Shown here in pieces: positions 1,301 to 21,512 of a stretch of DNA of 40,679 nt. Made by a program: the position numbers and the translations under genes. A model generated the notes under the pieces. The model saw only the letters and a list, made by a program, of their open reading frames with translations, was not told the origin of the DNA and ran no database searches. Source of the stretch: Chrysophaeum taylorii (taxonomy: Eukaryota > Sar > Pelagophyceae > Pelagomonadales > Pelagomonadaceae); contig JAQMWT010000645.1 in NCBI GenBank assembly GCA_029834535.1, forward strand, positions 1 to 40,679, read 5' to 3'. Positions within the stretch are counted from its first letter, which is position 1; each line of letters starts with the position of its first letter.

Positions 1301-1639
1301 GGCGGAGGGGGGTGTGCTTGCACAGATAGATCCGCTGTGGTAGTAAACGCGTAGTGGACGACCGGACGCGGGAGGCGAATGAGTTCAGATAAAAAGACTG
1401 AGTGATGCTGGAGCTTTGCAAAATCCAACATGTGAGATTGCGAGCGTGTCTGCTGCATGCTGTGTTTGCGAGTTCATCCTCGAGTGACATTCGTGTTCCA
1501 GTGTGAAACTAACCACAGCGCGGAGTGTTTGGATGAGACTGCAGGGAAAAGGCCATTGGTTTGGCGATTGGCGAGAACATAGCGGTTTTCCTATAAGTGT
1601 TTGTAATCGTTGGATCAGCCGTCGACGCGTTCATTAAGC

Positions 1640-2179
1640 TCATACAGGGTATGGTTCATGGCAATGGAGGGTCGTTGCTTGTACATTCAGAGCTTTGAGA
1701 GCTGAGATGTCGCGATAACCTGTAGTGCGGAATTGCAGGACGACCAGAAATACGAGATAATAAGCGTAACCGGTGGATCGACGTCCTTGAGGAGAGCTGC
1801 GCGGCCTGCAAGTACAAATGTTTGACACCGATGAAATGGCTGGTCAAGGTGCCTCTTCCCATACGTGTGGTGTGTTCGGGAATCCGGCGTATGGACTCGG
1901 GAACAAGTGTTGAATTGTGCGTGTAAAGCAAAAGGATGCGCTGCCGTCAATTAATGAAGTTCCAGTGCCGGGTCCATTGCATCCGTGCAGGTAGTCTTTC
2001 TTCGATGTCTTTCCTGGAGTGTAAGTGGCACAAAGAAAATCTACGACTCTGGGTGAGATGGTTGATGATGTCGGGAAATTTGTCATCGTGAGGCTTGGTG
2101 CCTGATTGAGTAAGATGTGGTTGGCGGCACAGGCGTCGTCGGCAACCATCAGCGAAGCTGACTCTGGTGGAGCACGCAT
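1640..2179 (-). pseudogene. Element A retropepsin-like protease
   Basis: The 2179-1844 frame contains SLIDGSASFCFTRTI, matching SLIDGGASFCFTRTI of element B. The LID-G-[GS]-A pattern is a variant of the aspartic protease signature D-[ST]-G-A; the Asp codon is at about 1946-1948. Downstream residues continue in overlapping frames to about 1640, so the domain is broken by indels. Order after gag and before the methyltransferase agrees with B. Assignment as protease rests on this motif and on position in a copia polyprotein; a structure prediction would settle it. Confidence 0.6.
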
Positions 2180-2220
2180 GTAGTCATGTGACGTTGTGCG
2201 TGATCTTCGGCGGAATCATC

Positions 2221-5200
2221 TCATCGTGGACTTCGGGGATGGTGTCGTCGTAGAGCTGGGGTGTCCGTGGTCATCATAGAAACCGATATGGGCTTGGTCA
2301 TCTTTGTCGTCAGTTTCGCCCTCATCAGGTTGATCTTCCGGAGGATCGGACGATAGCACCTGAAGAATAACGGCATCGTTATCGGCTTCGGAGATGGTAT
2401 CTCGTCGGAGATGGTGGTGATGAGGTTGATTAGCTTGCTCATGCGCTCGGAGCTGGACGTGTGTTGGCGACCGGCTTGGCTTAGATTGCGTATAGTTTGG
2501 AGCTTGCGACGGACTTCACGAAGGGGGACCTTGAATCGCTGGTCAGGAGTAGATGGTTTGGGTGGATGCGGTTGTGTGGGGAAGTTGACCTTGCGAAGAT
2601 GCGGGTGCTCGCGTTTGTCGGGGGTGACAGGAGCAGCACGGGGATTGTGCTTGTTCTTCGTTGGGGTGACAGGGGTGGCTTTGGGCTTTGGACTGTCATT
2701 GATGTCATAGTACGACGGAGAGCGAGGATTGTGAGGCTTTTTTGGGGGGGGCTTATTGGGATGTCGTGTAGCCTGTTTCTTTCTATCGGCGCGTAGATGT
2801 TGGATGAGATCGTTGTCGTCATCTTGATCGAGGTCGGCCTCAGTGAGAAAAACAGCAACAGGGTCGGTGGCTTCAGTGGGGTCCGGAGGGATTTCATCTT
2901 CAGAGGGAGAGGTGTCATCATCGTCTTCGGCGAGGTGGAGACCATGACGGCGGGAGCGAAAACGTGGATGGTCTTTGTCTTTAGTCGGCAGACGACCAAA
3001 GTCAGTGACGAAGCGCAAAGGCTTGAAGTTGAGAGTTGGGCGAGGCTCGAGGTGAGCCCAAAAGCTGCGCTCAAACGTGGAGATGAGACTGTGATGCGAG
3101 CGATGAGCTTGGGAAGGTGGTTTATGGCTTCCTTGTCTTCGTCGAGTAACAGCGAGTCGTTTGGAGTGCGCAAACAGGTAGCAAGACGCGCCAAGCCCCT
3201 GATGTGTGTTGGGGCGCGGGAGTCAAGTGAACTTGGATGGTACTTAGAGCGAAGCAGTTGGTGGATTTCCTCGAGAATCTTGTCGTCGGGAAGTTGGAGT
3301 GAACCATCGTTTGTAATTTGGCGGAGTTGCTGCTGAACGTGACGCATATAATAAATGTAGTGCGCGGGCTCGTGGATCTCCGGGTTGAACGGCGTGTCCA
3401 GGAAGGCATTATAGACATAATGCGCATGGTGGACGTGGTTCTGGCCCGTGTGCTTGTCAAGTGCTAGGCGAACTTGAAGCACGAATTCGACTCCTATCGG
3501 ATGGGAGGATCCGAGTGCATCGATTTCGTCGTATGCTGGGTGTTTGACGGAGTCGCTACCGGCATGTAGGAAACGGCGAAATAGGGGGTGCACGGTCTCG
3601 CGGAGGTACACGGTGAAGTCGGCTTCTTTTCCTTGGAGATGAGGTTGGGTGATCGGATACAACTTGCCTTTTGTCATATCTGTCGGGTCCTTGTCTAGAT
3701 CTTCAAGTTCTTGGAGCTTTGGCTCGTAGACGTTCTCCAAGAAGTGTTTGCCGAATTTGCGGTAGGTGCCCTTGTATTAGACGTAACGGCCTTGGAAATC
3801 GTGCGTGTTTCCGGCGGTAGTGTGGTTGTCGGGATCTTTATCGTATTCTTTGATGCAGTGGCTGAGAAGAGCGTCAGCGAGATCATTAGATCCGCGCAGG
3901 ACGGATTCCCACGTATAGAAGCCCTGCATGAAGTATTGGGTTTTGCCTAGCGCGGGAATGTAACTTGTATGCTTCAGCGTCGGACTTAAAATGTTCACAG
4001 GCGTAAGAACCGCAGCTGAAGTTTGACGCGATGCACGTGCTTCGCGAGATCATCGTATTGTTCAAGGCAGAGAGCATGTGTATCTCACACCCCCTGGTGT
4101 GCGGTTTGCATTGCACCTGATTATTAAGGTGAGCTGTATGCATGTCGTGTACAGGGACGAGGCAGTGTGTTTCAATTCGACTCTGTAATCGCTTGTAAAC
4201 GCGTTGTAGGTGAACTTGGTGGTGAGAATGTCACGCGATACCATATCTGTGTGCAGGGTGAGTAAGGCGTTCATCGCGGCTTCAGCGTCTGTAGAGCCAG
4301 GTACTGCATTTGTACGCTGACAAGTGTCCTCATAGGTCAAGTGATCATGCTGGTGAAAGTCTGTGGGTTCCAGTTGTCCACGTATGAAGTTGGTTTGCTG
4401 CGCCTGCGTGTATGCAGGGACTACAGGTGTCGAAGGTTGCGTTGACATCCTGATCTCGTTGGCGGTGAGGTCTAGCTTGGAGAGCTGTTTCTCACGGGTG
4501 TTACACAGGTCAGCTGTTGTGCCTTCGAGCGGCAAGAACTCGGACATGCTTGGAGTAGGCGGAAGCGCGTGGGGCTGCGGCGCGGCTTTGGCGTTGGCAA
4601 CGTCTGCGCGATCATTGGAGGAGTCGGAGGTACACGTAGCGCTGTGAGTATTGTGAATTACTTGTGTGTGACGATGATGCAGGCTTCACCCCCTCGAGTT
4701 GAGCCTCTTGGGAGAGGGGCGACTCGCACGTGGTGGCGACAGCAGAGGTGATCCTGGTGTCTGGCCACACGGGTGTGGAGACCGGATGAGCGGGGCTAGG
4801 GTGGCTGGCGATGTCCGGCACGTTGGTTTCACCAGGGGCTGGTTCATCGAGAGCTGGACCGTCGGCTTCATCGGGAGGAAGAAGACCGGTCGCGTCATAC
4901 GGTCGTTTCTCAGCAAGAAGAGGCGACTGCGGAGGTTGCGAGGCTTGCGGGATCAACGTATTGCGCGGCAGTGCAGTGATGCTGGGTTGACAATCACTGT
5001 GGGGTGCCGTTTGGGTGTACGAGTCGGACGGGTCATGGTCGTGGACGTGGCCGTCGGACCGAATGCATGGATCGGGACTTGGGTGGAGGGGGGGGTGGAG
5101 CTGCAGCAGCGACGGCAGGTGGTGGTGCTTGCGTTGCTTGCATTTGGTTCAGCATGGCGCGAAGGTCTTGAGTGTCTTGTTTTTGGGCTGCCATCTCCCT

Positions 5201-5314
5201 TTGATGCCGAGCTTCGTACACTTGAGCTTGTTGTTGCATGTCTCTTTGGTACTTGGCTTCTAGGCGAGCTTCTTGTTCTCGCATCTCCTTTTGGAGTTCT
5301 TGATTGGTTGGCAT
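2221..5314 (-). pseudogene. Element A gag, frameshifted
   Basis: The first ATG that makes sense is at 5314 (MPTNQELQKEMREQEARL), opening a charged coiled-coil of about 60 residues followed by a proline-rich stretch to 5033. The frame then changes: 4956-4612 and 4547-4062 hold about 300 residues that have no counterpart in B. From 3998 onward the sequence matches B closely: QGFYTWESVLRGSNDLADAL, then a long helical core at 3740-3018, then an acidic and basic tail at 3018-2221 (DDDDTSPSEDE; PVTPDKREHPHLRKV). This is the expected layout of a copia capsid region, but no CCHC knuckle was seen. At least four frame changes break it. The extra 1 kb relative to B is either an insertion in A or a deletion in B. 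Confidence 0.75.
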
Positions 5315-5399
5315 TTTGCTTGGGTTCAGGAACGTCAGTGAGCGGGACTCGTCTGGAAATCCCGAGGCTCTGCTGATACCGGGACTGGTGCCCAATACC

Positions 5400-5596
5400 T
5401 AGAGAACAGTAATTTCAACTGTGTTACCCTTCAGCGGAGCGTGAGAACTGTGGTAGTCTGTCCTCGGAACTGTCTCCTAAAACCAGGACAGCCGGTGTGA
5501 ATAACACAGCGTTTTCTTAAATCAAAGGGTGCTAAAATTAAGGGAACTAATCATAGAATAGAGGGTACTAACCCTATTTCCGATTTTCTATCTCTA
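5400..5596 (-). repeat. 5' LTR of element A (197 bp)
   Basis: On the minus strand the LTR starts TAGAGATAG at 5596 and ends TTCTCTA at 5400, followed by GGTATTGGGCACCAGTCCC, the same leader that follows the 5' LTR of B. It aligns with the 195-bp 3' LTR of B over its whole length, including the segment missing from B's 5' LTR. The ends were set by comparison with B, where a target duplication fixes them. A tRNA-iMet-like primer site (GGTATCAGCAGAG) lies about 18 bases into the leader; its use is inference. Confidence 0.85.
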
Positions 5597-6421
5597 TCAG
5601 ATTCAGCTCCCATCGCCTTGTATGACGTCATACGTCATATTCCGATTACAGCCCAGACACCCCACAAACCCATCCACATCCTTCATGCTCCCCACACACA
5701 CCCCCCTCTTAGCAGTCGACATTTAAAGACAGACACCGCACAGGCTCCTACGCACTCGCGACGGCACGCTCACCGCCCCTCTCGGTTTAGACTACCAACA
5801 TTGCGCCATCCCCATGGTACACTCACAGTCAACTGATATGCACGCTCGCTTGTCGCACAGTACGATGCCCGAACACCTTTTGGTTAAGGATAAGCAGAAT
5901 ACTGTCGTCTCAGTTACCGCTCACGCGCCCCCTCCGACCACCGCCCGGCTCTGCGCTCGTTCCGCAACCACGGTCTCTCCGCCTCACCGGCAATTCGACG
6001 ATTCCACCCAGTTCAAATTACGAGGGCGCATTGTTTTCCACCGCTGACAAGATCTGTTTCGATTCGTATCCGTCACGTCTCCTATGGCTACTCTGGCTAC
6101 ATCGGAACTCACTTCAAGGCACGTACCGAAGTCCATCTTCCTAAGGACCTCTGTCACACGACATGACCTGATGGGCTCTCGTCGTTCCTCCCCGCTTCGA
6201 CGCGACTCCCGACGATCCAATTCCCGACGATTTGTGATGCCACTAAGATCCGTCATCAATGCAATTCCGAGATCCCACGCTCTTCCGTCAGTCTCTTGCA
6301 GGACACACCCCCCAAGTTTCAGCTCGCTCGATTTCACCCTGAATGCTGCCATATGCACACGAAGTTCTGTCATGCCAACGCCACATGTCGCAGTTATCGC
6401 CAGTCTCGCGCAGCAAATGCC
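5597..6421. other. Flank of element A, no recognised gene
   Basis: This is the sequence into which element A inserted on its right side. At 5621-5640 it holds a CRE-like palindrome, TATGACGTCATACGTCATA. Short open frames occur on both strands (plus 5814-6047, 6084-6512) but they overlap, have no recognisable domain, and none stands out. A histidine- and cysteine-rich stretch at about 6330-6400 (CCHMHTKFCHANATC, plus strand) is odd, but stops lie close upstream in its frame. I cannot assign a gene here. Confidence 0.4.
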
Positions 6422-6580
6422 CACAACGCGGTCTCCTCGTCGCATGGCGACAAGCTTGATGGTCACTCTCCGCCGACCGACCTTTCGGCGCTCCTCGTCT
6501 ACAGGCCCGTGATTCCGGACTGGCACCTGTCGGTCCGGCCTGGCTCCCATGCTCGGGAGAGGTCTGAAGTTAGTTAGTTG
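6422..6580 (+). mobile_element. Short TTAG-tailed retroelement copy S1, 5'-truncated
   Basis: The plus strand carries the 3' end of a family found five times in the window: it ends GCATGGGAG-type sequence read in reverse complement (CTCCCATGCTCGGGAGAGG), TCTGAAG and the tail TTAGTTAGTT. Homology to S2 begins near CACAACGCGGTCTCC at 6422, so about 215 bases of the 5' end are missing. The tail abuts the broken gag of element C at 6581. I found no clear target duplication, so a deletion may have followed insertion. Confidence 0.75.
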
Positions 6581-7570
6581 AGCTGGGTGTCCTCGAGATG
6601 GAGTTCGGCGTGGGTGGAGACCAGTTCGCCGGCTTGGATGGCGAGCTTGGCGGTGGCGGAGGCTAGAGCAGCATCGGTTATGGTGAGTGTAGTGGTGGCG
6701 GAAGCCAAGGCGTTATCCGTGAGAGTGAGCGCGGCCTTGGTTGCGGCCAAGTCGGCGGTTTGGAAGTCGAGTGCAACTTGTGTGGCGGCCAACTGCAGTT
6801 GGAGCGCGGACGGAGGTGCATGGGAACTTGGAGAAGGAAGGTTGAGTGATTCTTGGGTGGTGACGGGAGAAGGGTCGTAGCCGTGGAGAGCGTAATCACG
6901 CGGGTGGAGGTGAAAATCGGGGGGACAGCGACTTTCGAAAGATGATGAAGATCGGACAGGAGGGTCCGATGATGAGGCGGCAGGAGCTTGAGCCGCGGAA
7001 GGGGCTTGGGTAGGAATGGAAGTGCAGGGGCCGTCGTGGCCGTAGGTGGCATGGTCTTGTCGAGGAGAGTTGTTGTCGTGGCGAGTAGATGGGAGCGGGT
7101 GACGGGGAACTTGAGAGGGAAATGGTGGAGAGGGAATCGCCGAAAGTGGGGAGTAAGGCCCCAGTGAAGGAGGTGGAGGCTCCGGTGGAGTAGGTGGAGT
7201 GAAGGGGGGTATGGAAGTCGGTCTTGGTGGTGGGGTATTCGTGTTGGACAGCAGGAGGGGGGGGGACCATGGAAATGATCGGGTCTTGGGTCGCAACTTC
7301 TACCGAAGTGTGCTCGAGAGGGGCTTTCGTTATAACGGCTGGGGTGGAATCTTGTCCAGATCCAGGTTGCACGTCTTGGTCGAGTTGCTCATGCATGGCT
7401 TCGAATTTTGCGGCGAGCTTGTCGACGGCAGATTGGAGGTTTGCTCTTATAGCGTTGTTTTCGGCTTGGGTTTGGTCGAGCCTTTGCCAGATCCAGGGAG
7501 CGTATTCGTGTGGTGTTGCGAGTTGCTTCGCGAGTTCCAGACTCGTGACGTTGGGGTCGTGAGTCGCCAT
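6581..7570 (-). pseudogene. Element C gag, N-terminal part, frameshifted
   Basis: The ATG at 7570 follows the LTR leader directly. Residues 1-65 (MATHDPNVTSLELAKQL ... AENNAIRANLQSAVDKL) are helical and coiled-coil-like, as expected for the start of a copia gag. A proline/serine-rich linker follows. Near 7290 the coding frame changes. The last 80 residues, coded at 6600-6800, consist of repeated heptad-like units (LTLTDNALASATTTL, LTITDAALASATAKL, LAIQAGELVSTHAEL). The frame runs out in the S1 tail. Assignment rests on position after the LTR and on the start resembling B. Confidence 0.55.
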
Positions 7571-7947: not shown

Positions 7948-8404
7948 GTTCTATTTCGGCATCCCCAGGCTTGGCGACAGCCGCATCCGAGGGGGGGGGG
8001 GTGCGCGCGAGAACAGCGTTTTGCTGGGCGGGGGGGCCGCCAACCCCCAGCGCTACAGTTTTGTGCCCGGGGGGGAGTCTGCGACGTCCCAGCACGAAAG
8101 TTTCGTGCTAGGTGGTAGTCTGACCACCGACTACTAGACTCTAGAAGAGGCCTTGCATGCTTCCGAGCGCCCAGGTGGTCAGCATAGCTATAGAACTACG
8201 GACGGCCACGGACTGGGTGCCGGCGACACGGCCGAGAGGGAGCGCCTCTGCTAGCCTCGCGCTCTTCGCGGGCATAGGCGTAAAAAGGACCAGAGGGAGC
8301 GCTGCTGCAGGAAACCACTGTGCCGTCGCCATACGCGCGACTCCGAGCCGTAAAACTTGTCGGAGTATTGTACGCGTCCTGTCCTCAAGGCGACGATGAT
8401 GACG
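7948..8404. other. GC-rich flank between elements C and D
   Basis: It contains runs of G (about 7991-8000 and 8030-8037) and a block at 7970-8028 (GGCTTGGCGACAGCCGCATC ... CGCGCGAGAACA) that recurs inverted at 19090-19148. At 8091-8109 there is a perfect odd palindrome, AGCACGAAAGTTTCGTGCT. From 8157 a plus-strand frame of 80 codons reaches the edge of element D, but I recognise nothing in it; see the acidic ORF at 18455 for a possible continuation. Confidence 0.5.
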
Positions 8405-8409
8405 ACAAC

Positions 8410-8733
8410 TATGGCGGCACAGAAAAACACTCCCAACCCCCGGGTGACAAAGGGGGTACTCACCGACTCGCCCTAGACCTCACTGAACGAGGCAAACACG
8501 GACTCGGGGTCGGATATGCTCGCCACACACCCTGCTCACGCTCACCAAGCCTCTCAACAAGATGGAGAGATGGTACATGATAGCAAAAATGCTACAATGA
8601 CGCTGCAAGATACGCTTCTCACGAGGGAGAGGTGTGATGTCACTAGGAAAGTAGGAAAAGACGACCCGTTGAACGGGGGTATCAAGCCTCGAGAAGGGAG
8701 GGCAAGCCTTAGCGGTCAGGAGTTGCCGCCACA
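8410..8733 (-). repeat. 3' LTR of element D (324 bp)
   Basis: It pairs with the 5' LTR at 18129-18449 and has the same TGTGGCGGCA start and CCGCCATA end. It is preceded by the polypurine-like tract and followed by acaac at 8405-8409, the second copy of the target duplication. Confidence 0.92.
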
Positions 8734-8745
8734 GGACCCCCCTGG
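8734..8745 (-). other. Polypurine tract of element D
   Basis: CCAGGGGGGTCC lies directly before the 3' LTR on the minus strand, where the plus-strand primer of reverse transcription is expected. Only the G-run is purine, so it is a weak match accepted on position. Confidence 0.5.
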
Positions 8746-8763
8746 AGAGAATACGAGCTGCCC

Positions 8764-9231
8764 TCAGCGAGTCCGGCGAAAATCACGAGCCTTGGCTGAA
8801 TGAGCATCTCGGGAACGAATCTTCTTGTATACGCGTTCAACGACAGGCTCGGGAACGCGTCCACTACGCAAAGTGAACTTAGGAATCAACACATCGATCT
8901 CGTGCGAGGCGAAGTCGGTGACACAAGGAGTGGTACTGTTGTTGACCTTGGACTTGTCGGTGAAACTGCGACCGTCCACGTCCCTGTATTTCGGCTTAGG
9001 CTTGCGAGTAGAGAGATGTGAGGTAGGCTTGTATTAAGAAACCTTGTCATGGGGACCGAGATCAGCATAAAAATGCAGAGCGACTCGATCATTCACAAAA
9101 TCATAGGGCTCATAAACTTCAGCTACGTAAATCTTCTTTCGCCAATCGGACCGTTTGTTATCGGGAATCCGAAAGACATCGAACTTACCGTGCTTGTAGT
9201 CATCCCGAAAGGTCTCCCTGGGCTTGGGCAC
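8764..9231 (-). pseudogene. Element D integrase C-terminal tail
   Basis: Two frames, 9231-9034 (FRIPDNKRSDWRKKIYVAEV; DRVALHFYADLGPHDK) and 8979-8764 (FASHEIDVLIPKFTLRSGRV; VYKKIRSRDAHSAKARDF). Together with the GPF end upstream they form the tail of the polyprotein up to the polypurine tract. The place is where chromoviruses have a chromodomain, but I see no aromatic cage residues, so I do not call one. Confidence 0.5.
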
Positions 9232-9344
9232 AGCTCGATCGACCCTTGAGAAAACATCACACGGGTGATCTGGCTAACATGAACACAACGGCGTTGAGGA
9301 GGAGAATCAATAGACTCGATCCTGGAAGTGACCGGAGACAAGCG

Positions 9345-10603
9345 TTACAAAATAACGAATGGACCGCGCCATTCCGGTCGAAGCTTTTTCTGAAGAAAAG
9401 GGATGTAGAGCAGAACATGTGAACCTTCTTCATACTCCACATCGACATGGTCCGCATTGTAGGCGAGACGTTGTTTACGAAGAGCCTTCTCGCGAGCATC
9501 GTTTACCGTAGCGGTATAGAACTTCAGCCTCTCGCGAGTCTCTGCCACAACATCGGAGCGAGTTTTCGGCAGGCGGCGGACATCAAGATCCATGATCGTA
9601 TAATCGGTTGGCAATAAAGGCTACCGGTTAAGACGAAGCATGAAAGGTGAGATCCGAGTTCCCGGAATAAACTTGCGATTGTAGCAGAAAGCAATGTACT
9701 CCGCGAATTCGGGCCATTCCGCGATCTTGCGGTTTTGTAGGCACGCACGGAGGAAAGCCTTGATAAAGCGGTCGACCCTTTCCGCAGGATAAGCCTGAGC
9801 ATGATACGGAATCGCGGTACTATACCGAACATCGTCGACGAGATGACAAAACTCTTCCATCGATTTGTTGACGAGCTCGTTCCCGTTGTCGGTCCGAATC
9901 CTCTGAAGTAGATAGCCTTTGAGTGATATATTCGCGACAAAAGACTAGAGGATTGACTCAGCTTCTGGTGTAGTACGTCGAGAATCAAGAAATGAGAAAA
10001 TGGATCAAAAAATATGATCAGATATGCCTCGGGACCAGCACTGGGCCAAGGCCCGAACAAATCCATACAAAGGACGGCGCAATCAGCATCATACACCGGT
10101 TGCTGAAGAAGACCGGCTCTCTTTGGTTCAGGCGTGCGAGCTTTCTTGCACACTATGCAACCAGCAATATAAGCACCCACCTCATTAGACATGTGGGGCC
10201 ACCAAAAACGTTCAAGTATCGAGTGCACTGTACTATGACGACCCATGTGACCACCATTGAGAGGTGTGTCATGGTACAATCGGATGATGCGCGTCCGTAA
10301 AGTTCGGGGTGCGACTATCATCGGGTGCAAGTCAGGTGCGGCACGGTAGAGAACTCCTTTCACCACTTGATAGCGATAATTGGCTCCGTACGGACGAAGA
10401 GAATGGCCTTGAGCCATGCGATAACGAATGTCCTCGCAAGTAGCATCAGTGATCTGTTCTTTGGCTATCTCTCCCAAAGTCAAATTATCCGGTATCTTGT
10501 CGATGTACTCTTGGTAATCATCGGCATCACGGAAAGTACTAGGCTGGGTCTGCAGACGTAGCTTCTGACGTTGTCTCGTAGCATGAGACGTGACCAATTG
10601 CAT
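9345..10603 (-). pseudogene. Element D integrase
   Basis: The zinc-binding HHCC region is at about 10300-10140 (HDTPLNGGHMGRHSTVHSIL and AGCIVCKKAR). The catalytic core gives the first Asp in CMDLFGPW, the second in RTDNGNELVN (about 9898-9870) and the Glu in AERVDRFIKAF. There are 35 residues between the second Asp and the Glu, the D-35-E spacing of retroviral-type integrases. The frame changes between first and second Asp (about 9960) and again near 9620. The end of 9614-9345 has the GPF module (LRPEWRGPFVIL) typical of gypsy integrases. Confidence 0.88.
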
Positions 10604-10681
10604 CGGATCGTCGAGACCCTCTTCTTATTCCTCCACAGGCAACTCAGTCGTAACAAACGACAGAATGACATGGCACCCATG

Positions 10682-11464
10682 TTAAGGTACTCCTTCATCA
10701 TCAACAGGGCGAGGAATTTCTTGGCACACTAGGTACGAGTGCTTCGAGGGTTCACCAAACTCATCCGTCTCGATGACATGATCGATAGGATTGCGAGAGA
10801 GGCAGTCAGGGATACTCATTCCCGGCGACTTTCCTGGTTTGTAACCCAATTCAGGATCAAAATTGGCGAGCCGCATCGCCCATCGAGCCAACTGTCCAGA
10901 CGAGTACTTCGCCTTTCGTGAAAACGTCAAATTGCGATGATACGTCTCAAGGATCGTCTTGTGACCTTCAATATAAGAGCGAAAGTGCTCAAGAGAAAGA
11001 ACAAGTGCCTGTAGCTCTAGCCGGCGAGGCTCATAGTTCCGCATCTCTATCGGCACAGCTCGGCTCCAATACTCAAGCACTCGTTCCTCTCGTGTCACCT
11101 TGCCGGTTTCGTCCTTGACTTCCACGAGCTGAAAAAGATACGCGCCCAGACAATCCTTGGAAGCATCCGAGCGAATCTGAAAAGGAAGATCGTAGTCAGG
11201 ATGATAAACTCCGCGAGAGTCCACCAAAGCTTCGATGATTGTGTTCCACGCCTTTTGGCACTCAGGCGTCCACTCAAACTTAACACCTTCAAGACACAAT
11301 CGCCTCAGCGGCTCCACAATCTTCGAATAATTCTTCACATATCGGCGGCAATAGTTGCCCATGCCGATGAAAGATCGAATCTGGGTCTTCGGGGACGTGT
11401 TCGGCAACGTACCGGGAATCGGCATCTGCTGCAACGCTTCTAACGTCTTGGGATTCGGCTTCAA
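10682..11464 (-). CDS. Element D RNase H (with RT connection)
   Basis: In frame with RT after a TAA at about 11466. It opens with the usual connection (IRSFIGMGNYCRRYVKNYSK; EPLRRLC; FEWTPECQKAWNTI) and continues with the gypsy-type RNase H: IRSDASKDCLGAYLFQ (first Asp), EERVLEYWSRAV, MRNYEPRRLELQALVLSLEH (catalytic Glu) and the ARWAMRLANFDPELGYKPGK segment leading to PDCLSRNP. It removes the RNA strand during reverse transcription. It ends at a TAA (10682-10684); the same reading frame resumes into integrase after a second TAA near 10628. Confidence 0.9.
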   Translation of the reverse strand: MKPNPKTLEALQQMPIPGTLPNTSPKTQIRSFIGMGNYCRRYVKNYSKIVEPLRRLCLEGVKFEWTPECQKAWNTIIEALVDSRGVYHPDYDLPFQIRSDASKDCLGAYLFQLVEVKDETGKVTREERVLEYWSRAVPIEMRNYEPRRLELQALVLSLEHFRSYIEGHKTILETYHRNLTFSRKAKYSSGQLARWAMRLANFDPELGYKPGKSPGMSIPDCLSRNPIDHVIETDEFGEPSKHSYLVCQEIPRPVDDEGVP

Positions 11465-11467
11465 GCC

Positions 11468-12520
11468 TTACGGAGTCGAAATGTGTCCTAGAAACTCGAT
11501 TTCATCTTCGAGGAGGTGGAACTTCGAAGTTCGTCCACTATATCCTCGCTGCGCTAAATGGCACAGCACTTCAATCAAGACTTGCAAATGACGGTGGTGT
11601 TCATCCGATCCCATCATAATATCGTCGACAAACGCGACCAAGTCCTTATACATCCATGTGGACAAATCGCTAGCCATCTGCTTACAGAAGAGAGCTCATG
11701 CTGTTTTCACTCCCAGAGGCAAGCGCAAGAAACCATGGGCTCCAAGTGGACTAACCATCGTAACGGCGTCCTGAGCGGCGGCGTCCAAACGTAGGTTATG
11801 ATAACCCCATCGAATATCAATGCACGTCCGCCAACGGCGCATGGCAAGAAAGGCCAAAGCATCATCTTGACGAATATTCGGCCAACTGTCATCGACCAGC
11901 TGATCATTGAGCTGACGCAAGTCAACTGCAGCACGAAAAGCATTCGACGTCCCGGCCTCTGCTCCCTTCTTAGGCAGCATCAGTACAGGGAATCCCCGCG
12001 GAGAGTTCGCCGATCGGATGACTCCATCGCGACACCACTCGGTGATCTGCTTTCTGAGACACTCGGGCTCTGCTGGCGTCAACCTATAAGGCGTCATCTT
12101 GATCGGTCGTGGGTTTGCGTCTTTAAATCGCAGAGAAACCGGTGGCGAGTCCACGGGTCTCATAATCGGATAAAAAAAGGCCCACGCGTATTGCACGCAG
12201 TGGCTCAACATCATCTTCGCATCCTCATCCAGATGCGGGTTGTCGGGAATTCGCAGTTCTCGAACAACCTTCTCGACTTCTTCCTTCGTCGGAGTTGCGA
12301 CTTTCATCGCCTCATTGTCCTTTACGTGCTCCGGAGTCTGCGGTAACGGTGCACCGTCCGCGTCGCGCGGCGCATCTTTCCATGGCACATCGAACTTTCC
12401 TTCGTATTTGAACCTCACCTCAGGGTGGCTCTTGTTGATCTTTTCGCCTTTGACGCGCACATTCGGTTCGCTCCTTACTTTCGGCTCCTGTTCAGGTTCA
12501 GGATCCGGCGGAACGTCCAC
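11468..12520 (-). pseudogene. Element D reverse transcriptase
   Basis: The frame 12520-11696 begins with a proline/glutamate linker, then the RT fingers and palm: YRLTPAEPECLRKQITEWCR, the SPRGFPVLMLPKK motif, AFRAAVDLRQLND, CIDIRWGYHNLRL (first catalytic Asp) and GAHGFLRLPLGV. A TGA follows at about 11695, and the same frame goes on with LFCKQMASDLSTWM and the catalytic box FVDDIMMGSDEHH (YxDD variant with Phe), then FHLLEDEIEFLGH. The RT has about the usual length for a Ty3/gypsy element. Only the stop near 11695 and a TAA near 11466 interrupt it. Confidence 0.9.
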
Positions 12521-12800
12521 GTTCGATTGTCGGGGGGGGGGGCAGCAGAAAAAGCATTAGCCGTCCCCGGCGCATCTGTTGGAAGCGGAAGCATAGGAAC
12601 TTCTGGCGGTTCCCATTTAGTGGGATCCTGGAGATCATCTTTTGACACCCACTTAACGACACGAGTACGCGCATTTAACAGCGGAATCTGTACGTGACGA
12701 AGGGTGGTGTCGGCAATTCGCAAATACTGCTCAAAAGATCGATCTGTCGGGCTCAACGCGGTCGGCAGGACTTCGCCACTTTGGCGGAAACCGTTGGTCA
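12521..12800 (-). CDS. Element D pol, linker between methyltransferase and RT
   Basis: About 95 residues after motif X, in the frame 13218-12475 (SGEVLPTALSPTDRSFEQYL; VVKWVSKDDLQDPTKWEPPE), ending in a proline/alanine stretch. A run of ten G at 12533-12542 (plus strand) marks the point where the frame changes into the RT frame. No domain recognised. Confidence 0.45.
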
Positions 12801-13640
12801 CGGAGTTGTACAGATCGACTACTAAAATAGCAAGAGTGTCTGGAGGGACAACAGACGCCAAGTGCTTGGACGAATCTGTCTTAGACAAGCCAGCCCAATC
12901 ATGGTCCTGCGGCATCGTGAGCAAATCGGCCGTCATCTCGAGAGTCAAAGGCTGAGTGTCCGAGCGGTGCGGTCCCAAGCGAAGAGGAACTCGCGTAACG
13001 GTGTAAGCCGCATCCGTTGCTTCTCGGGACGAGCCTAGATTATTCAGCTGGAGCAGGTGTCGTTCATCCGCGTAACCTAAAGCTGCAGCGAATTTTTGTT
13101 GCATATTCGCACATGTATTCGGAGCCTCTTGCAGGTGCAGTGGGTGACTGGGAACCATCAATCGCACGCGAGAGCTCATCAGAGTGGGCGTGATATCATG
13201 AAAATTGACGACGCACACGTAAGGGTGTAAGCGCGCTATATAATAAATAATGGACGCCTCCTGTTCGATCAGTCACATCATGAAGCCAGCCATTTTGCAT
13301 AGCTCCATCGTCCAATTAGTGGCCGTAACTCCCTGCCAACATCGCTGGACGTCAAGTTGCAGAGTGCTGAATGAACGCAGGGTGGAGACGCGATACACAT
13401 CGACGATGACCATTCCGCTTCAGGCAAATAAGCCTCGATCAATCGGAGGGTCGTGTCATATCGTCCGCAGAGCGTGTGTTGAACCACAGGTATCTTCGGA
13501 AAATTCTTCTGATGAATCTTGTTGGCAGCTGTTGAAGAGTCAAGAGCAAGGACGACTCGAAAAGACGTCCCGCACAACTCATGCGCTCGTTGCAGTCCTA
13601 AAGTACTGCTCCCGGCACCGCTAAATAGCACCACAACCTT
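12800..13640 (-). pseudogene. Element D C5-cytosine DNA methyltransferase domain, frameshifted
   Basis: All main C5-methyltransferase motifs occur in order. Motif I is VVVLFSGAGSSTLGLQRA (13635-13589, SAM binding). Motif II is RVVLALDSSTAANKIHQKNF. Motif IV is CIASPPC, with the catalytic Cys codon at 13377-13379. Motif VI is LIEQ (Glu codon 13264-13266), motif VIII SRVRLMVPS (13173-13147), motif IX PLTLEMTADLLTMP (12951-12910) and motif X LASVVPPDTLAILVVDLY (12865-12815). AYTVTR before motif IX fits the usual T-x-T-R. Directly after the catalytic Cys the frame changes by one base; in the other frame SFS follows at the spacing of PPCxxFS. A TGA at 13273-13275 lies just before LIEQ. Length, about 280 residues, suits a bare catalytic domain with a short target-recognition region. 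Confidence 0.88.
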
Positions 13641-14580
13641 GCGATACGTGATCGGCAGCCATTGGACTTTTTCAAACCTTAGGCGAATCTCTCCTTCTGT
13701 AACTTCTCGGCACTTCTTTTTCTCCTCGTCGGTTCGTCGGTCGAAAGCGTCGTTATCGACCGATTCTTGACGATAGTTCTTATCCTTATCGGCAGAAGAA
13801 GACGCCTTCTGCGCCGAGCTCAAAAGCATCGGTTCAGGAGCCGCATCGCCTCGAGTCAGATGGCTTGCGACCGAAGCAGTGAACGATAAGATAGCCTTGT
13901 CAGATTCGGCTTCACCATCCTTCGTTAATTCGTCGACCGTTTCAACATTCAGCTCGTCATCAAGACAAACAATATCTCCCAAAGCGAGAATTTCACCTTG
14001 AGTAAACACGGTCGGCACATCCTGGATAGAGGAGATCGCCACTCGAGCTGCGAACTTGTCGTGATCATCAGGAGAAGAACACATTCCATCGACAACCCCA
14101 AGTAGCTCGTATCCAGAAGACGTAGCAACGAAAACCTGCCCAGTTTCCATGGGCTCTGAAAGAGCGACTGGCACGCAGCAAGTGCGCCCAGGCTCGACCT
14201 TCATCGTGCGCGCAGCATAGGCTACCAATTCATAGGCATCGCTGTTCGAACTTCGAGAATGCGCAACTGTAGGGACTTCCCGAGTCGTCGAAGCTGCCGC
14301 TCGTTTCGGCGGTGGACGCTGGAGGTCTTCTATCTTGCACAAGCGAGCGTAAACGCGGTTCTCAACTGTGATCAGGTTCTTTTGCATCGCATGGTGCTGT
14401 TGCCCATAAACCTGAACTACCACGGAGTTGCGCTCGTGATAAGTTGTTATGAACGTCAAAATCGGAGAATCGACACGTCGATCCTGCACCTTTAACTTCT
14501 TGCGCCCATAAGCGACTTGTGTGCGGAGAAACGCATTGCGATTTCGCGGGTAGTCCACTATGGCCCCCAACGCCCGAATA
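13640..14580 (-). CDS. Element D pol, spacer between protease and methyltransferase
   Basis: Part of the long frame 14702-13278, about 310 residues between the protease end and motif I of the methyltransferase. It includes a stretch resembling the beta-rich region often seen before RT in gypsy pol (RTCCVPVALSEPMETGQVFV) and an acidic, lysine-rich linker (DAFDRRTDEEKKKCREVTEG). No domain is recognised with certainty. Confidence 0.5.
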
Positions 14581-15487
14581 TCGCGCGCTCCCAGCAGAAA
14601 CATGTGATTAGTATCGGCCACAATGGCTACCACTGGGACTGCCACGTCGTCCGCGAGCACATTTCGCAATGCGACCCATTTGTGGATAGTCGTCTTATTC
14701 AATCCTGACCGTACAGGGTGCGCTCGACTGGGAGATCGCCTCGGTCAAGGATTTTATTATCCTTTGCCAGTTTTTCGACCATCCCACGACAAATATAGGA
14801 GACATCAGCCATTCCATCAACGCCTAATGTCGCTGCGAACTTCGGCCCGTCTCGTCGTCTGTAAATATGTCCAACTATGAACGTAAGTGTGCCAGGGTCC
14901 AGACAACCGATGGTGATGAGGTCTTGCTCGATCTTTTCCCCATCGCTCGGCGAAAGTGCATTGTGATGACATCGTATATCCGGTTTCGCATCGCCCGGCA
15001 TCTGCATCGTCACCGCGGCCATATCTTGCGTCCCATGTCTCGCCTCGGAATCTACATTGGCGCTCGCCGCTTCGGCTGCTTCCTCATTCCCAAGTTTCGC
15101 TGGCAACAAACTCTGACACTTCTCAATCGGAGGCACATATACTTCCTCCTTTGTCTCCTCTGACAATTTTCGTTTCTCGTCCATCAAATCGGACATTCCC
15201 GTCCACTTCTCCTCCATCGGCGCCGCTGTGGTCTGCTCTGCTGCGACCAAAACTGTATCGGCTAAAACATCGGCTAAAACCGTTTCGGGGGGGGGCGTAG
15301 GAAAAGAAGACGTCGTCCCCGACGTCAACTCAAAAGGTCTAACGTCATCATCGTGAACTGCCCTGCAAGACACACATTGACGAATGGGGGGACACTGGAA
15401 CCTGCGGCATGGGCTCGTCGGTCTCCGAGTCAGATTCTCCCCAGTAGCGCGGACAATCCAAAGCTGTATCTGATATTGCTTCCTCAT
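14580..15487 (-). pseudogene. Element D retropepsin-like protease, split by a frame change
   Basis: The frame 15487-14699 has an acidic linker (EEKWTGMSDLMDEKRKLSEE) and then FAATLGVDGMADVSYICRGM at about 14860-14800, in which VDGMADVS stands where retropepsins have LVDTGA.xS. The C-terminal half continues in the next frame, from 14702, with VALRNVLADDVAVPVVAIV and FLLGARDIRALGAIVDY, which matches the [IL]-L-G-x-D closing motif of this fold. The two frames overlap by four bases at 14699-14702, so the join could be a programmed shift or a mutation. Both halves together make a domain of normal length. The T-G to G-M change at the active site is unusual. Confidence 0.65.
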
Positions 15488-15947
15488 ACGATGTAGAAGG
15501 CCACCGAGCGATATGAGCGTCGGTGGTATTTTGCTCCTGTTGCAAGCGACGGCTGCTCGTCACAGCGGCATCGGCAACATCATCGGGGACTCGGGCGGGG
15601 CGCGCCTTCGGGTAAAAGACAACACCCGACGATGGCTGCGCTTCGCATAGAGATTGGAACGCGAAAGTTGCGCTCGAATGTCCCGAACTGTCCTGATATC
15701 GGCCTCCGTCATATTCGTCATCGCGCTGTCGATGACGTCTGCGCCGGCGCGAATTGAGACTCGAGCCCCGGCTATGGCGGCGACGGCGGGGGCTCGGGCT
15801 GGATGTAGGACTATTGGCCTTTTGATCAAGGCTCTTACTTCGGTGTCGGCGCGACGATCGTCTAGAAGGTGATCGTCCATCTCGCTGTCGTGTAGAAGAC
15901 GACTTGCTATCTTTGATGCATCTGACCTCGCTCACCATGGTCGCCAT
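15348..15947 (-). CDS. Element D arginine/serine-rich segment between gag and protease
   Basis: A 199-residue frame. Residues 15-75 are rich in SR and RR pairs (RSPSRRSSRRHRSKS; SPSPRRRRHSRGSS; SRRRRRHRQRDDEYDGG), like the RS domains of splicing factors. The second half is acidic and ends near SPHSSMCVLQG. It overlaps the following frame by about 140 bases. In a retrotransposon polyprotein such a basic region could act in RNA binding or nuclear import; that is inference. It may be one protein with gag in the original element. Confidence 0.5.
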   Translation of the reverse strand: MATMVSEVRCIKDSKSSSTRQRDGRSPSRRSSRRHRSKSLDQKANSPTSSPSPRRRRHSRGSSLNSRRRRRHRQRDDEYDGGRYQDSSGHSSATFAFQSLCEAQPSSGVVFYPKARPARVPDDVADAAVTSSRRLQQEQNTTDAHIARWPSTSYEEAISDTALDCPRYWGESDSETDEPMPQVPVSPHSSMCVLQGSSR

Positions 15948-15995
15948 TGTGGTTCCAAGCTCGGTGAGGGCCGTTTGGATTTCAGTAGTAGGTTC

Positions 15996-16890
15996 CTATC
16001 CGCACGTGGCGTGCGCATTAGATGCATCGTCACGCTTCTCCCAATCGGAGCGTGATATGGGTTGCTTTTTGTGTTTCCGAATGCGCGTCCACATCGCACA
16101 GTGACAACGGTCCGGATCGCGGTTGCAAACCACGCGATTTCCGTGTTCATCTTCATCGTGGGTGGACCAGAAGTACCCGCACTCCTTGCACGTCCTCGTA
16201 CACCACCAAAACGGATCTCGCAAGATCAGCGGAACCGTATTCCCAGACGGCTTATCCGCATCTTGCTTAGCTTGTTGATCGGAGGCCATGGCTCGACCTC
16301 CCCGCCCTCGCGGCGGTTTATTCGGTTTCGGATTGGAGGGTCCCTGGTCTTTTTCCTCCTCCATCAACTTCCGAAAGTCGTTCTCAAGTCTCGTAATGAG
16401 CGCCACCGTCGACGTAAAAGTAACGTAACTATCCGGGTGACCACTCCTCATAGTCCGCACACGGGTCCGTAAATCCTTGGACGCCAAACCACCGATAAGC
16501 TGGTCGACGATATCAACGTCATCCATCGTGCGGCTGGGCTCGGTACAAAAGGCTAAGGCCTCATTCTGAAATTTGGTACAATAGGTTTGTACGTGCCTCT
16601 CTCCAGTCTTCTTCGGAACCGAAGACTGAGTGACCATCCGCAGCTTATCGAGCAGCTCCTGCTTGCGTGATCGGAGGTCGGCAAGTTGATATAAAATAAT
16701 CCAAAACCTTATCACAGTTAGTCTTGTTGAGACGACGGATGCGCCGAATCGAGGCTCCATGCTCTTCGTCGTCAGCATCCAATTTCAAATAAAATGACGG
16801 ACCGTGCAGTAGCTCATCGGAGAGCTCCTCGTATTTCCGCAAATGCTCCTCAAAAATTGGTGCAGCGGTATCGCGCAAATGCACCGGCAA
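15996..16890 (-). pseudogene. Element D gag, capsid and Cys-rich nucleocapsid part, frameshifted
   Basis: Two overlapping frames: 16890-16645 (MPVHLRDTAAPIFEEHLRKY) and 16778-15996. The second has a helical capsid-like stretch (YCTKFQNEALAFCTEPSRTM; DVDIVDQLIGGLASKDLRTR), which resembles the retrotransposon gag core where a short helix precedes a leucine-rich L-x-GL segment. It then has a basic glycine-rich linker and a cysteine cluster (CTRTCKECGYFW ... CNRDPDRCHC). The cluster would bind zinc or nucleic acid but is not a standard CCHC knuckle. The frame change is at about 16680-16700. Confidence 0.65.
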
Positions 16891-17082
16891 TTAACATCGC
16901 AATTTCTCGACCGGGTAATGGTCATCTGCCAAAGTATGCATCACCGCTGCCGAATCCAGATCGAATTGCCGTTGATCTCGGCCGTCGATGGCGAGTTTGA
17001 AATTGTCAGCCTCCAAACTGAAAGTGGGGCGACGAGATCGGCTCAAGTTGGCCTTCTCGAAGGCGTCCGCAAACGTCTGCGA

Positions 17083-17682
17083 TTATCCCCGTAACAAGTT
17101 CGCACCTTCATCTTCAGTTTCCGCCCTACCCTCAGTCTCCGTATCGACTCGGGGCGGAGGTTCATCCCCCGTTTCAGTGCTCCTTTCCGGTTCAGGCCGC
17201 CGCACGGGCGTTTCCGGTTCGGGCCGACTCACGGGTCGTTCGCGGCTACTCTCACGACGCGCACGTTCGGCTAACAATTCATCTCGCTCACGACGAAATC
17301 GTTCAACCTCCTCACGTAGGGCCCTCGTTGTCTCGAGCTCTTGCTGCAATGCGTCATTCAGCATATTGAGTTCTCGTTGAGCCGCTTCTTCCTTAGCATC
17401 AGCCCTTTCACGGGCAAATCGCTCAGCTAATCGTTCATTTCCGCGACGTCTCCGCTCGAGGTCTTCACGAAGTCGACTTCGCGTTACGGATCCGCGCTCA
17501 ATCGCAACACGCTCGCCGCGGTCCGGGGTCGTTGGACTCAACGGCGAAAAAACTGCGGCATATGGAGGCACGTCAGGGGGCAAGTCAGCAACGTCGACTG
17601 CCTCGGCCTCTCGTAATTCACCTTCCTCGCGGCCTATCGCAGGGGCGGCGGGAAGCACTGGAGGAGATCCTTCCTCGCGCAC
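17083..17682 (-). CDS. Element D gag, N-terminal coiled-coil
   Basis: About 200 residues without an ATG at the start; the left coordinate is the stop and the right end is the first possible start, a GTG. After an acidic, proline-rich opening, residues 65-145 form a long charged coiled-coil (SRLREDLERRRRGNERLAER; LREEVERFRRERDELLAERA). The tail repeats PEPETPVRRPEPERSTETG-like acidic and proline units. First frame after the LTR leader, hence gag by position. Coiled-coil ends are common in gypsy gag proteins, but I cannot match it to a named capsid family. Confidence 0.6.
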   Translation of the reverse strand: MREEGSPPVLPAAPAIGREEGELREAEAVDVADLPPDVPPYAAVFSPLSPTTPDRGERVAIERGSVTRSRLREDLERRRRGNERLAERFARERADAKEEAAQRELNMLNDALQQELETTRALREEVERFRRERDELLAERARRESSRERPVSRPEPETPVRRPEPERSTETGDEPPPRVDTETEGRAETEDEGANLLRG

Positions 17683-18110
17683 GTCTGCGTCTGTATCCGT
17701 ATTGTATCAATGTCGATGAAGAATCTCGAAACAAGTCCGGATTCGATCACTCGAAGTAATGCACGTTGATCACAACAACGCTATCTGTCGCTGTTAAAAC
17801 AGCACTCACGGAATTCTTATCCGCTGGCAATCCAAAAATGCCCGTGGGTAGCGATCCCACTCGCTAACAGCTTCCGCCGTTCAGCTACACCAAAATCAAT
17901 TCCCGGGTGAATGCGCTGCGATTTCCAACTCGCACGCGTGTTCGTCGTCTCTCGGGACGCACGAACGAAACAAAGTCCGCGTATATTCTCAACGCAAACC
18001 GGCCCACTGGAACTCCGCGTGCTTGATCAGGGCACGCGTGCAAATCCGGACCACGTAATGCAATACGTACGGCGGCACTCGTTCGTCGGCGACCGATATA
18101 GTCGCACGAT
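17683..18110 (-). other. 5' leader of element D
   Basis: About 430 bases between the primer-binding site and the first long gag frame. I see no convincing ATG in the gag frame; the frame is open from about 17708 and meets a TGA upstream, so the true start was lost or lies in another frame. No gene is supported here. Confidence 0.5.
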
Positions 18111-18126
18111 CTCATATCCTCCACCA
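18111..18126 (-). other. Primer-binding site of element D
   Basis: Two bases after the 5' LTR the minus strand reads TGGTGGAGGATATGAG. Its complement ends in CCA as a tRNA 3' end would (CTCATATCCTCCACCA). The position and the TGG start are as expected for a gypsy element; I cannot name the tRNA. Confidence 0.6.
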
Positions 18127-18128
18127 CG

Positions 18129-18449
18129 TATGGCGGCACAGAAGAACTCCCCCAACCCCGGGTGACAAAGGGGGTACTCGCCGACTCGCCGTAGACCTCT
18201 CTGAACGAGGCAAACACGGACTTGGGGTCTGATATGCTCGCCACACACCCTGCTCACGCTCACCACGCCTCTCAGCAAGATGGAGAGATGGTATATGACA
18301 GCAAGAATGCTACAAGAACGCTGCAAGATACGCTTCTCACGAGGGAGAGGTATGATATCACTAGGAAAGTAGGAAAAGGCGTCCCGTCGAACGTGTATCA
18401 AGCCTCGAGATGGGAGGGTGAGCCTTAGCGGTCAGGAGTTGCCGCCACA
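18129..18449 (-). repeat. 5' LTR of element D (321 bp)
   Basis: It starts TGTGGCGGCAACTCC at 18449 and ends TGTGCCGCCATA at 18129 on the minus strand; the first and last ten bases are inverted repeats with one mismatch (TGTGGCGGCA against TATGGCGGCA). It aligns with the 3' LTR over its full length. The outer flank is acaac at 18450-18454. Confidence 0.92.
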
Positions 18450-18454
18450 ACAAC

Positions 18455-18723: not shown

Positions 18724-19148
18724 GGGGGGGGGGGGGGGTACCGATCCCCCAGCGCGATAGGAGAGGCCTAGGACCTAGGGTCGGATAAGAAAACAAGACT
18801 AGCCCGCGCCGCAACGACGGGTGCTGCAACGCGTGGGCTTTTTCCTTTTTTTGCGTGAGGGGACGAAAGGATGCCGACTTCACTATGGGGACTAGTTCCA
18901 TCGCGACGATCTCGCAGCGTGGCGGCACATACTGCTTGAGTACAAATGAACATAGCTCAGCGATCCGTTGAGTATGTCTTAGTACAAACTGAAACATAGT
19001 TAACGGCTCGTACGAACTTTCTTATCCGACCCTGCCTAGGTGAGGGGACACCGACCCCCCAGCGCTAAGCTTTCGTGATGGGGGTGCGCTCTCTTCGTGT
19101 TCTCGCGCGCCCCCCCCCGGATGCGGCTGTCGCCAAGCCCCGTCCCCG
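18724..19148. repeat. Repeated GC-rich blocks around the MITE candidate
   Basis: CCGATCCCCCAGCGC at 18740-18755 and CCGACCCCCCAGCGCT at 19051-19066 are direct copies, and a third copy (CCAACCCCCAGCGCT) is at 8040-8054. The stretch 19090-19148 is the inverted partner of 7970-8028. These lie outside elements C and D and may be the ends of an older DNA transposon, now split by D. A run of 14-15 G at 18724-18738 may be unreliable in length. Confidence 0.45.
18778..19032. repeat. MITE candidate with 15-bp terminal inverted repeats
   Basis: GGGTCGGATAAGAAA at 18778-18792 is matched exactly, inverted, by TTTCTTATCCGACCC at 19018-19032, bounding 255 bases with no convincing gene. CCTAGG occurs close to both ends outside the repeats. 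A non-autonomous DNA transposon is the simplest reading. The family of the terminal repeat is unknown to me. Confidence 0.5.
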
Positions 19149-20401: not shown

Positions 20402-20775
20402 CAACTAACTAACTAACTTCAGACCTCTCCCGAGCATGGGAGCCAGGCCGGACCGACAGGTGCCAGTCCGGAATCACGGGCCTGTAGACGAGGAGCGCCG
20501 AAAGGTCGGTCGGCGGAGAGTGACCATCAAGCTTGTCGCCATGCGACGAGGAGACCGCGATGTGACTGACAACCAACTCGTCGATAACCTTCCGTCTTCG
20601 CCCCCGGCCATACCCCGTCCCACTGCGAACGTTCCGGCTGCCAACCGGCCCGCCCGGGAGGCGAATAGGTGCCAACCTACGCCGGGAGGGCGGATGCCCT
20701 CGCAAGGCTCAGGATTCATGAGGCACCGTCCTCCATCGCAACCGCAGTCGGCGATCAGGGTAAGGGTATTGTTTA
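20402..20775 (-). mobile_element. Short TTAG-tailed retroelement copy S2, full length (374 bp)
   Basis: It is flanked by a perfect 12-bp duplication, CCTACTCCCTTC (20390-20401 and 20776-20787). Its 3' end, at the left, is the tail (CTAA)n followed by CTTCAGACCTCTCCCGAGC; its 5' end, at the right, holds AGGGTAAGGG. Direct repeats of varying length and a simple-repeat tail point to target-primed reverse transcription, as in LINEs and SINEs. An open frame of about 55 codons before the tail (minus strand, ending RPGSHARERSEVS) is kept in several copies, but I cannot link it to a protein. No clear pol III A and B boxes were seen. Confidence 0.8.
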
Positions 20776-20787: not shown

Positions 20788-21512
20788 ACTCTGACGTATA
20801 TGCCATCTGTCTTGGCGACGTCAGTCCCTTCAGGACTTTCTGTTCTTCATCAAGAGTATCTTTATCATAAACCAAATCCCAGCCTCGAGTTGAGAGGCTT
20901 GGCGAGCGAATTGTGAGTGGCTACGAACGGCGGACCCTTCGCCTAGCGCCGGCCTCGAGCTTGGAGGTTCCCGGAGTGTCGGCGAAATACCCCTGAGCGA
21001 GGCCGGGTGCCGTTTCTACTGCCACAGGTGGTGGAGGACACTAGATACCGGCGACCATGCCGTCGCTGCTGAGCGAGTGTCTGCTGTTGCACTTACCGTA
21101 CCTCACGGTTACTAACCGAAAAAGTGAATAACCGGGATAAACCGGTTATTAACCGGTTATTTTATGTGACGAACTCAAGGGGTTAATGTTTTTCCTCGCC
21201 ACGTCAGCTTACCGCCCTATTTTCACGACCCCACTGGACAGTGTTTTCGATGAGTGTGCTGTACAGAATGCTCTCTCAGAGTGGGGGTGTACTTCAGGTG
21301 CCGATTTTTAGGCCACTTTGCACGTTGGTACCGCTCGCTGTACAGATCGGGCCTTATGGTCGAATACAACGTTGTGCTTGTGTTCGAAAAATCCTTTGGT
21401 TGAAAAACTAGCCCTCTCGAAGAGAAGTTGTTGACGACATATGAAATCGTCCAGCCACAAATAGAATCGCCTCCACCTTGTGGTCACTCCGATAGTGAGG
21501 CCACGGTCTTTG
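20788..21512. promoter_or_regulatory. Region upstream of APC2
   Basis: No gene seen. At about 21130-21165 the sequence AACCGGTTATT occurs twice next to each other, after a degenerate third copy (AACCGGGATA), and each contains the palindrome AACCGGTT. It lies some 350 bases upstream of the APC2 start and could be a binding site or a short repeat. No TATA box is evident. Confidence 0.35.

Follow-up and report, generated by a model that had tools for sequence, protein, structure and literature searches.

The window analysed here, a stretch of 40,679 nucleotides from the alga Chrysophaeum taylorii (contig C645; GenBank JAQMWT010000645.1), raises the question of whether a retrotransposon of this species carries a C5-cytosine methyltransferase (MTase) and which role such an enzyme may play for the element. 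A sequence-only reading of this DNA had described a gypsy-type element, termed element D, with an MTase between its protease and its reverse transcriptase (RT).

Element D was located on the minus strand at positions 8410-18449. It is bounded by direct long terminal repeats (LTRs), namely the 3' LTR at 8410-8733 (324 bases) and the 5' LTR at 18129-18449 (321 bases; in its own sense starting with TGTGGCGG and ending with CCGCCATA), which are identical at 297 of 321 aligned bases. Comparison of both flanks revealed the target-site duplication acaac at 8405-8409 and 18450-18454, confirming the element ends proposed previously. Two bases past the 5' LTR, a primer-binding-site-like stretch (TGGTGGAGGATATGAG, 18111-18126, minus strand) was noticed, for which exact pattern matching returned no fitting tRNA.

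In the element's own direction, gag-like, protease-like, MTase, RT, RNase H and integrase parts follow one another, all on the minus strand. The gag-like frames (15996-17706) were assigned by position only and matched no Pfam family above its cut-off. The protease-like stretch (14550-14821) extends over two frames and comprises VDGMADVSYI (14792-14821) and LLGARDIRALGAIV (14556-14597), which resemble protease signatures; no protease profile was matched by the scanned window pieces or open-copy frames. The RT (11369-12268) is broken by one TGA and one TAA inside the matched stretch, includes an FVDD motif (11609-11635) and shares 95% identity over 300 aa with the RT of the genomic copy L043. 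The L043 frame matched RVT_1 (1.2e-13) directly downstream of its MTase, whereas the window RT piece alone gave no Pfam match. RNase H (10682-11467; PF17917, 7.7e-22; PF17919, 9.9e-22) and integrase (9524-10624; PF17921 Integrase_H2C2, 2.3e-17) follow. These features identify element D as a Ty3/gypsy LTR retrotransposon with RT, RNase H and then integrase in its pol region. The MTase indeed lies upstream of the RT, while the protease that had been claimed on its other side is represented by motif-like stretches without a profile match.

C5-MTases are defined by a series of conserved motifs, canonically including ENV in motif VI and GN-VP in motif X. Motifs I, IV, VI, VIII, IX and X, reported earlier in this order, were all found on the minus strand between 12841 and 13625, represented by FSGAGS (13608-13625), SPPC (13377-13388), LIEQ (13261-13272), SRVRL (13159-13173), PLTLEM (12934-12951) and VVPP (12841-12852). 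They are distributed over two frames, one of 488 aa (13278-14744) harbouring motifs I to IV and one of 265 aa (12475-13272) harbouring motifs VI to X. The N-terminal half of the domain (13347-13718) includes motifs I (LFSGAGSSTLGL), II and IV and matched PF00145 with an E-value of 0.014 and 15.3 bits, i.e., under the Pfam cut-off of 22. The C-terminal half (12703-13272), with a short target region between motifs VIII and IX, was assigned by its position in open copies and gave no MTase match in the Pfam scan. Since a frameshift separates motif IV from motif VI, the window copy, which contains several breaks in all, is unable to make the whole domain. Judged from this copy alone, the MTase claim is weak.

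The assembly (70.8 Mb, 697 contigs) was searched for further copies. At least 91 matches to the 488-aa piece and at least 144 to the 265-aa piece were obtained; with the second subfamily's MTase domain as query, at least 110 scored matches resulted from 1104 candidates. The copies represent two subfamilies, mostly 73-89% and 63-65% identical to the 488-aa window piece. According to our own count, 86 of the 110 scored matches are devoid of stops, and open frames through the MTase region reach up to 3067 aa. The best 25 of these 110 matches, query included, are stop-free and 97-100% identical to the query, and the second subfamily has therefore probably been active recently. Among the matches listed, 80 of 131 RT matches feature an MTase match directly upstream, as determined by comparison with all 110 domain matches and part of the 144 matches to the 265-aa piece. 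For four of the other 51 (contigs C357, C311, C569 and C117), an upstream match to the 488-aa piece was recognised by eye; MTase-free members of the gypsy lineage may exist. The domain thus recurs in this genome, open copies of the kind the sequence-only reading proposed to look for are present, and a late insertion into the window copy only is ruled out.

Some copies (L019) encode the MTase and the start of the RT in a single frame, and others (L043) split them between two. Runs of G were noticed in the window at 12532-12542 (11 G), 15287-15295 (9 G), 7991-8001 (11 G) and 18724-18738 (15 G), and the run between MTase and RT coincides with a frame change, which could reflect slippage, an assembly error or a programmed shift.

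For alignment, 17 rows were picked by an open frame containing FSGAG and a motif-X-like string; three of them (L043, L045, L046) repeat L023, L032 and L014, and 14 copies at distinct places were aligned. While FSGAG is invariant by construction, the PPC cysteine (P111 P112 C113) and R-x-R are likewise invariant in all 14 copies from both subfamilies, and the motif VI glutamate is kept in at least 90% of them. All 14 matched PF00145 at E <=1 (best 1.8e-6); L040 (25.4 bits), L042 (24.3 bits) and L043 (23.6 bits) exceeded the cut-off of 22 bits, and L047 (21.1 bits) remained just below it. In the profile search suggested earlier, open copies thus passed the cut-off, and the window pieces alone gave a match below it or no MTase match. 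Weak matches to TIGR00675 were obtained for 13 of the 14 copies (best 1.5e-3, far under the cut-off), and L040 matched two PHROG DNA methyltransferase families (2.7e-7 and 3.8e-7). Moreover, hhalign aligned the gypsy profile at 90.7% probability (E 1.3e-6) over 130 columns, from motif I to motif VI, with a set composed of three plasmid C5-MTases and the DNMT2 of the host. In Pfam, NCBIfam, PHROG and the PDB, the aligned part of the gypsy domain is limited to some 60 residues starting at motif I, most profile matches ending after motif III, and the later motifs are putatively assigned based on position and conservation. The best match to any PDB chain is weak (E 0.093). A loose motif-and-spacing pattern, composed with the sequence already known, matched the natural open copy L040 and none of 200000 shuffles of L040, which speaks against chance motifs; a stricter pattern did not match L040. 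Protein database searches, which need shared 5-residue words, recovered no relative of the gypsy MTase at E <=0.01 among 7998 scored sequences and, in another search, none at E <=1 among 5674; none was found in IMG/VR.

Selection on the domain was evaluated by Nei-Gojobori counts using 10 of the 14 aligned copies. Between the subfamilies, dN/dS ranged from 0.059 to 0.078 in nine comparisons, with dN of 0.11-0.14 and dS of 1.8-2.1, i.e., near saturation; these comparisons are not independent, because L047, the one subfamily 2 copy included, takes part in all of them. For pairs inside subfamily 1, mean pN divided by mean pS was 0.243 (36 pairs). Comparing L043 with L047, the MTase (0.072) is more constrained than the upstream stretch (0.138). 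The gypsy MTase is under purifying selection, a pattern not expected of a functionless domain. Taken together, the comparisons show that the polyprotein of the D lineage includes, directly before the RT, a domain of the C5-cytosine MTase family that is maintained by selection.

A second MTase-bearing family is also present in the window. One copy (about 1-5600, minus strand, ends from the repeat table) is cut by the window start; its C5-MTase part was located by tblastn to L048 at 3-1679 and its gag part at 2155-3959, and frame 3-1241 matched PF00145 at 4.6e-4 and 20.1 bits, below the cut-off of 22. Another copy (25441-35163, plus strand, ends likewise from the repeat table) contains gag (25867-28210), the C5-MTase part (28682-30492; tblastn to L048/L052), integrase (30490-32083) and RT (33206-34171), with RVT_2 matched at 4.1e-39 by 33074-34390. 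The family encodes, in this order, a gag-like part, a protease-like motif (LIDGGAS in L006, LLDGGAS in L007), a C5-MTase (1.1e-9; TLPCQ as motif IV and ENV as motif VI), an integrase-like frame (matching rve below the cut-off, at 0.093) and an RVT_2 RT (2.5e-41 in L052). The integrase-like frame preceding RVT_2 corresponds to the Ty1/copia order. A short repeat family of up to about 400 bp was also observed in the window (20403-20767, 27375-27772, 35893-36260, 38793-38989 and, inverted, 6422-6583). Its member at 27375-27772 lies inside gag of the plus-strand copia copy. The minus-strand copy aligns across this site without a break and with 6 bases of overlap, the pattern expected of an insertion that creates a short duplication.

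Scanning the genome with PF00145 yielded at least 57 matches (123 of 474 candidates scored), two of which are host genes. All six fetched matches among the 55 others (L003-L008) belong to the one copia repeat family. In total, 29 of the 57 matches overlap copia pieces (69 of 79 pieces compared); the 28 non-overlapping ones comprise the host DNMT2 and DNMT5, three copia matches recognised by tblastn (L003, L005, L008) and 23 remaining ones. The copia MTase part is under purifying selection as well (dN/dS 0.106-0.230; 10 pairs of five copies). It resembles DNMT2 and plasmid MTases (84.7%) as well as M.HhaI (E 0.033), and no protein database relative was found at E <=0.1 among 7997 scored sequences in a search needing shared 5-residue words. 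The copia and gypsy MTases aligned in hhalign at only 0.3% probability, ruling out a recent common origin, and direct sequence comparison showed no relationship between them either. The simplest reading of these comparisons is independent capture by gypsy and copia elements, and one very old capture ancestral to both MTases is possible.

With regard to the host's own enzymes, a DNMT5 gene (L002, contig C621; 3e-143 to the 7r76 chain, deposited as DNA repair protein Rad8) and a DNMT2 gene (L001, contig C634; CFT signature in SCFTKSYGRY) were identified. The PDB entries 7r76, 7r77, 7r78 and 7t02, deposited as Rad8, presumably represent Cryptococcus DNMT5. DNMT5 and the gypsy MTase are both C5-MTases of the same genome; DNMT5 differs in being a host gene with a full-length MTase profile match. 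No third host-type C5-MTase was recognised among the 123 scored of the 474 PF00145 candidates, and a host DNMT1 or DNMT3 is possible among the remaining candidates or the 23 remaining matches. A search for BAH domains, which would point to DNMT1, gave none, and its controls gave no match either. In Cryptococcus, DNMT5 performs maintenance without de novo activity, its preferences elsewhere being described as undetermined in PMC9246332. For the light-harvesting family PF00504, 84 matches were recorded in the genome, indicating a photosynthetic host. Between the elements of the window, positions 21465-22703 (plus strand) encode ANAPC2-like TPR repeats (PF25773, 1.5e-27), a host gene piece apparently derived from the gene for anaphase-promoting-complex subunit 2.

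MTase-bearing retrotransposons are known as KnitGypsy-Dnmt3, SymbioDIRS-Dnmt3 and SymbioLINE-Dnmt from dinoflagellates and a charophyte (PMC5890265), in agreement with the capture by algal retrotransposons mentioned in the sequence-only reading (de Mendoza 2018). KnitGypsy-Dnmt3 of Klebsormidium nitens resembles element D in combining a gypsy-type pol with a C5-MTase in several copies and in showing purifying selection (Ka/Ks < 0.2, compared with 0.059-0.243 obtained here by a simpler method). Based on its description in PMC5890265, it may differ in its Dnmt3-related domain, the gypsy profile studied here having matched no DNMT3 chain in the PDB at E <=10, and it differs in its DIRS-like repeat arrangement, whereas element D has plain direct LTRs and a 5-bp duplication. 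Symbiodinium resembles the present genome in harbouring many retrotransposon-borne C5-MTases in one alga; its carriers are DIRS and LINE elements instead of gypsy and copia elements, and its LTR Copia superfamily is described in PMC5890265 as devoid of any DNMT domain, unlike the copia family found here. DIRS elements with a Dam-type MTase also combine a retrotransposon with a DNA MTase, but are of the adenine type and the DIRS class (PMC6338049). For stramenopiles, charophytes and red and green algae, the same source mentions retrotransposons that encode Dam or Dcm, treating both types together. PMC12344493 restates the existence of MTase-bearing retrotransposons, naming LTR Copia and DIRS families, and the passages of PMC9998398 available to us report DNMT5 in diatoms and other algae and no element-borne MTase beyond citation. 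A literature search by known element names, covering few subscription journals, returned only PMC5890265, and no other report was recognised in the results of broader searches.

Based on these results, the reading considered probable on balance is that the MTase of the gypsy polyprotein methylates the element's own cDNA and that host DNMT5 then keeps the mark. As part of the pol polyprotein, the MTase would probably be delivered together with the RT and the cDNA. Within the particle, it would methylate cytosines of the double-stranded cDNA by the time of integration. Each new insertion would thus carry the mark from the start, and DNMT5 would subsequently maintain it. The element would gain protection of its cDNA, and each silent insertion would be cheap. 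Self-methylation of retrotranscribed DNA has also been proposed by the authors of PMC5890265. In their yeast assays, two SymbioDIRS domains performed de novo CG methylation, and the SymbioLINE and KnitGypsy domains did not methylate, a result the authors call inconclusive. The KnitGypsy-Dnmt3 outcome somewhat lowers confidence in the proposed mechanism.

Traces of past methylation were sought in the gypsy copies. Element D shows no CpG depletion (CpG observed/expected 1.23, compared with 1.04 for the window, 1.26 and 1.46 for two host-gene loci and 1.04 for L048). Moreover, no excess of CpG transitions was detected between gypsy copies (0.0695 at CpG vs 0.0834 at other C/G positions, ratio 0.83), as counted for all pairs of 26 copies after leaving out three unorientable ones of 29 (L010-L038). 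Rates by context were 0.046 for CpA, 0.064 for CpC, 0.062 for CpG and 0.074 for CpT; CpT, not CpG, is highest, likewise in the copia family (six copies). The missing CpG decay speaks against long-standing CpG methylation of these copies, or for their youth, repair or another sequence context. In PMC5890265, CG depletion was seen in only one retrotransposon kind, SymbioLINE-Dnmt, from which element D differs in this respect, and the absence of CpG decay is thus not decisive.

An RNA m5C methyltransferase acting in a DNMT2-like manner on the tRNA primer or the element RNA would agree with DNA free of 5-methylcytosine decay. Furthermore, the only MTase chains matched by the gypsy profile in the PDB at E <=10 are three DNMT2-type chains, i.e., tRNA C38 methyltransferases (E 0.093, 0.099 and 1), besides four unrelated chains, and the window piece likewise matched DNMT2-type chains at E 0.47-0.62. 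The matches to these nearest PDB sequences are, however, restricted to motifs I to III, which are common to C5-MTases, and the PHROG families matched are DNA methyltransferases. A CFT tripeptide in the target region is the signature of DNMT2; it is present in the host DNMT2 and occurs in none of the 14 gypsy rows, excluding the domain from DNMT2 membership. An RNA substrate is considered unlikely.

A retained MTase fold without catalysis, serving as a structural or nucleic-acid-binding part, e.g., in particle assembly or integration, would also leave no decay signature in the DNA. It would be in line with the departures of the gypsy domain from canonical motifs, EQE replacing ENV in motif VI and ASVVPP replacing GN-VP in motif X, and with the inactivity in yeast of the nearest published gypsy case, an outcome inconclusive to its authors (PMC5890265). 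Yet the PPC cysteine and R-x-R have remained invariant in all 14 copies across two subfamilies separated by a dS of about 1.8-2.1, and a non-catalytic role therefore appears quite unlikely.

Methylation of host chromatin or competing elements instead of the element's own cDNA could be suspected from the many copies with long open frames and from the second element family also equipped with an MTase. Location of the domain in the pol polyprotein, where it would probably accompany RT and cDNA, argues against such targets, no sign of a role in trans was recognised, and this reading is regarded as very improbable. The score of the window copy below the Pfam cut-off would suit motifs arisen by chance or a host fragment present in this copy only, but both are practically excluded by at least 110 genomic matches, 80 of 131 listed RT pairings, purifying selection and 0 of 200000 shuffles.

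Methylation of the element's own cDNA followed by maintenance through DNMT5, the reading preferred here, leads to a broader and doubtful proposal, namely that retrotransposons act as the de novo methylation writers of this alga. Two LTR superfamilies would each have captured a C5-MTase beside the protease and methylate their own cDNA, the host supplying only the maintenance enzyme DNMT5 in addition to DNMT2. The census behind this proposal includes 23 of 55 non-host PF00145 matches that were neither fetched nor overlap listed copia pieces. The proposal resembles the loss of native Dnmt3 after capture that was suggested for Symbiodinium by the authors of PMC5890265.

MTase-bearing retrotransposons as such were already known; new here is a divergent MTase and the presence of such domains in two LTR superfamilies of one genome. 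Since both superfamilies carry a selectively maintained C5-MTase after a protease-like part, capture of MTases has probably been recurrent and advantageous. The findings suggest that retrotransposons of this kind may put methyl marks on their own fresh copies, and a host with DNMT5 permits a direct test of whether mobile elements write marks that the host maintains. If retrotransposons were indeed the de novo writers, methylation of the host would be seeded by its parasites.
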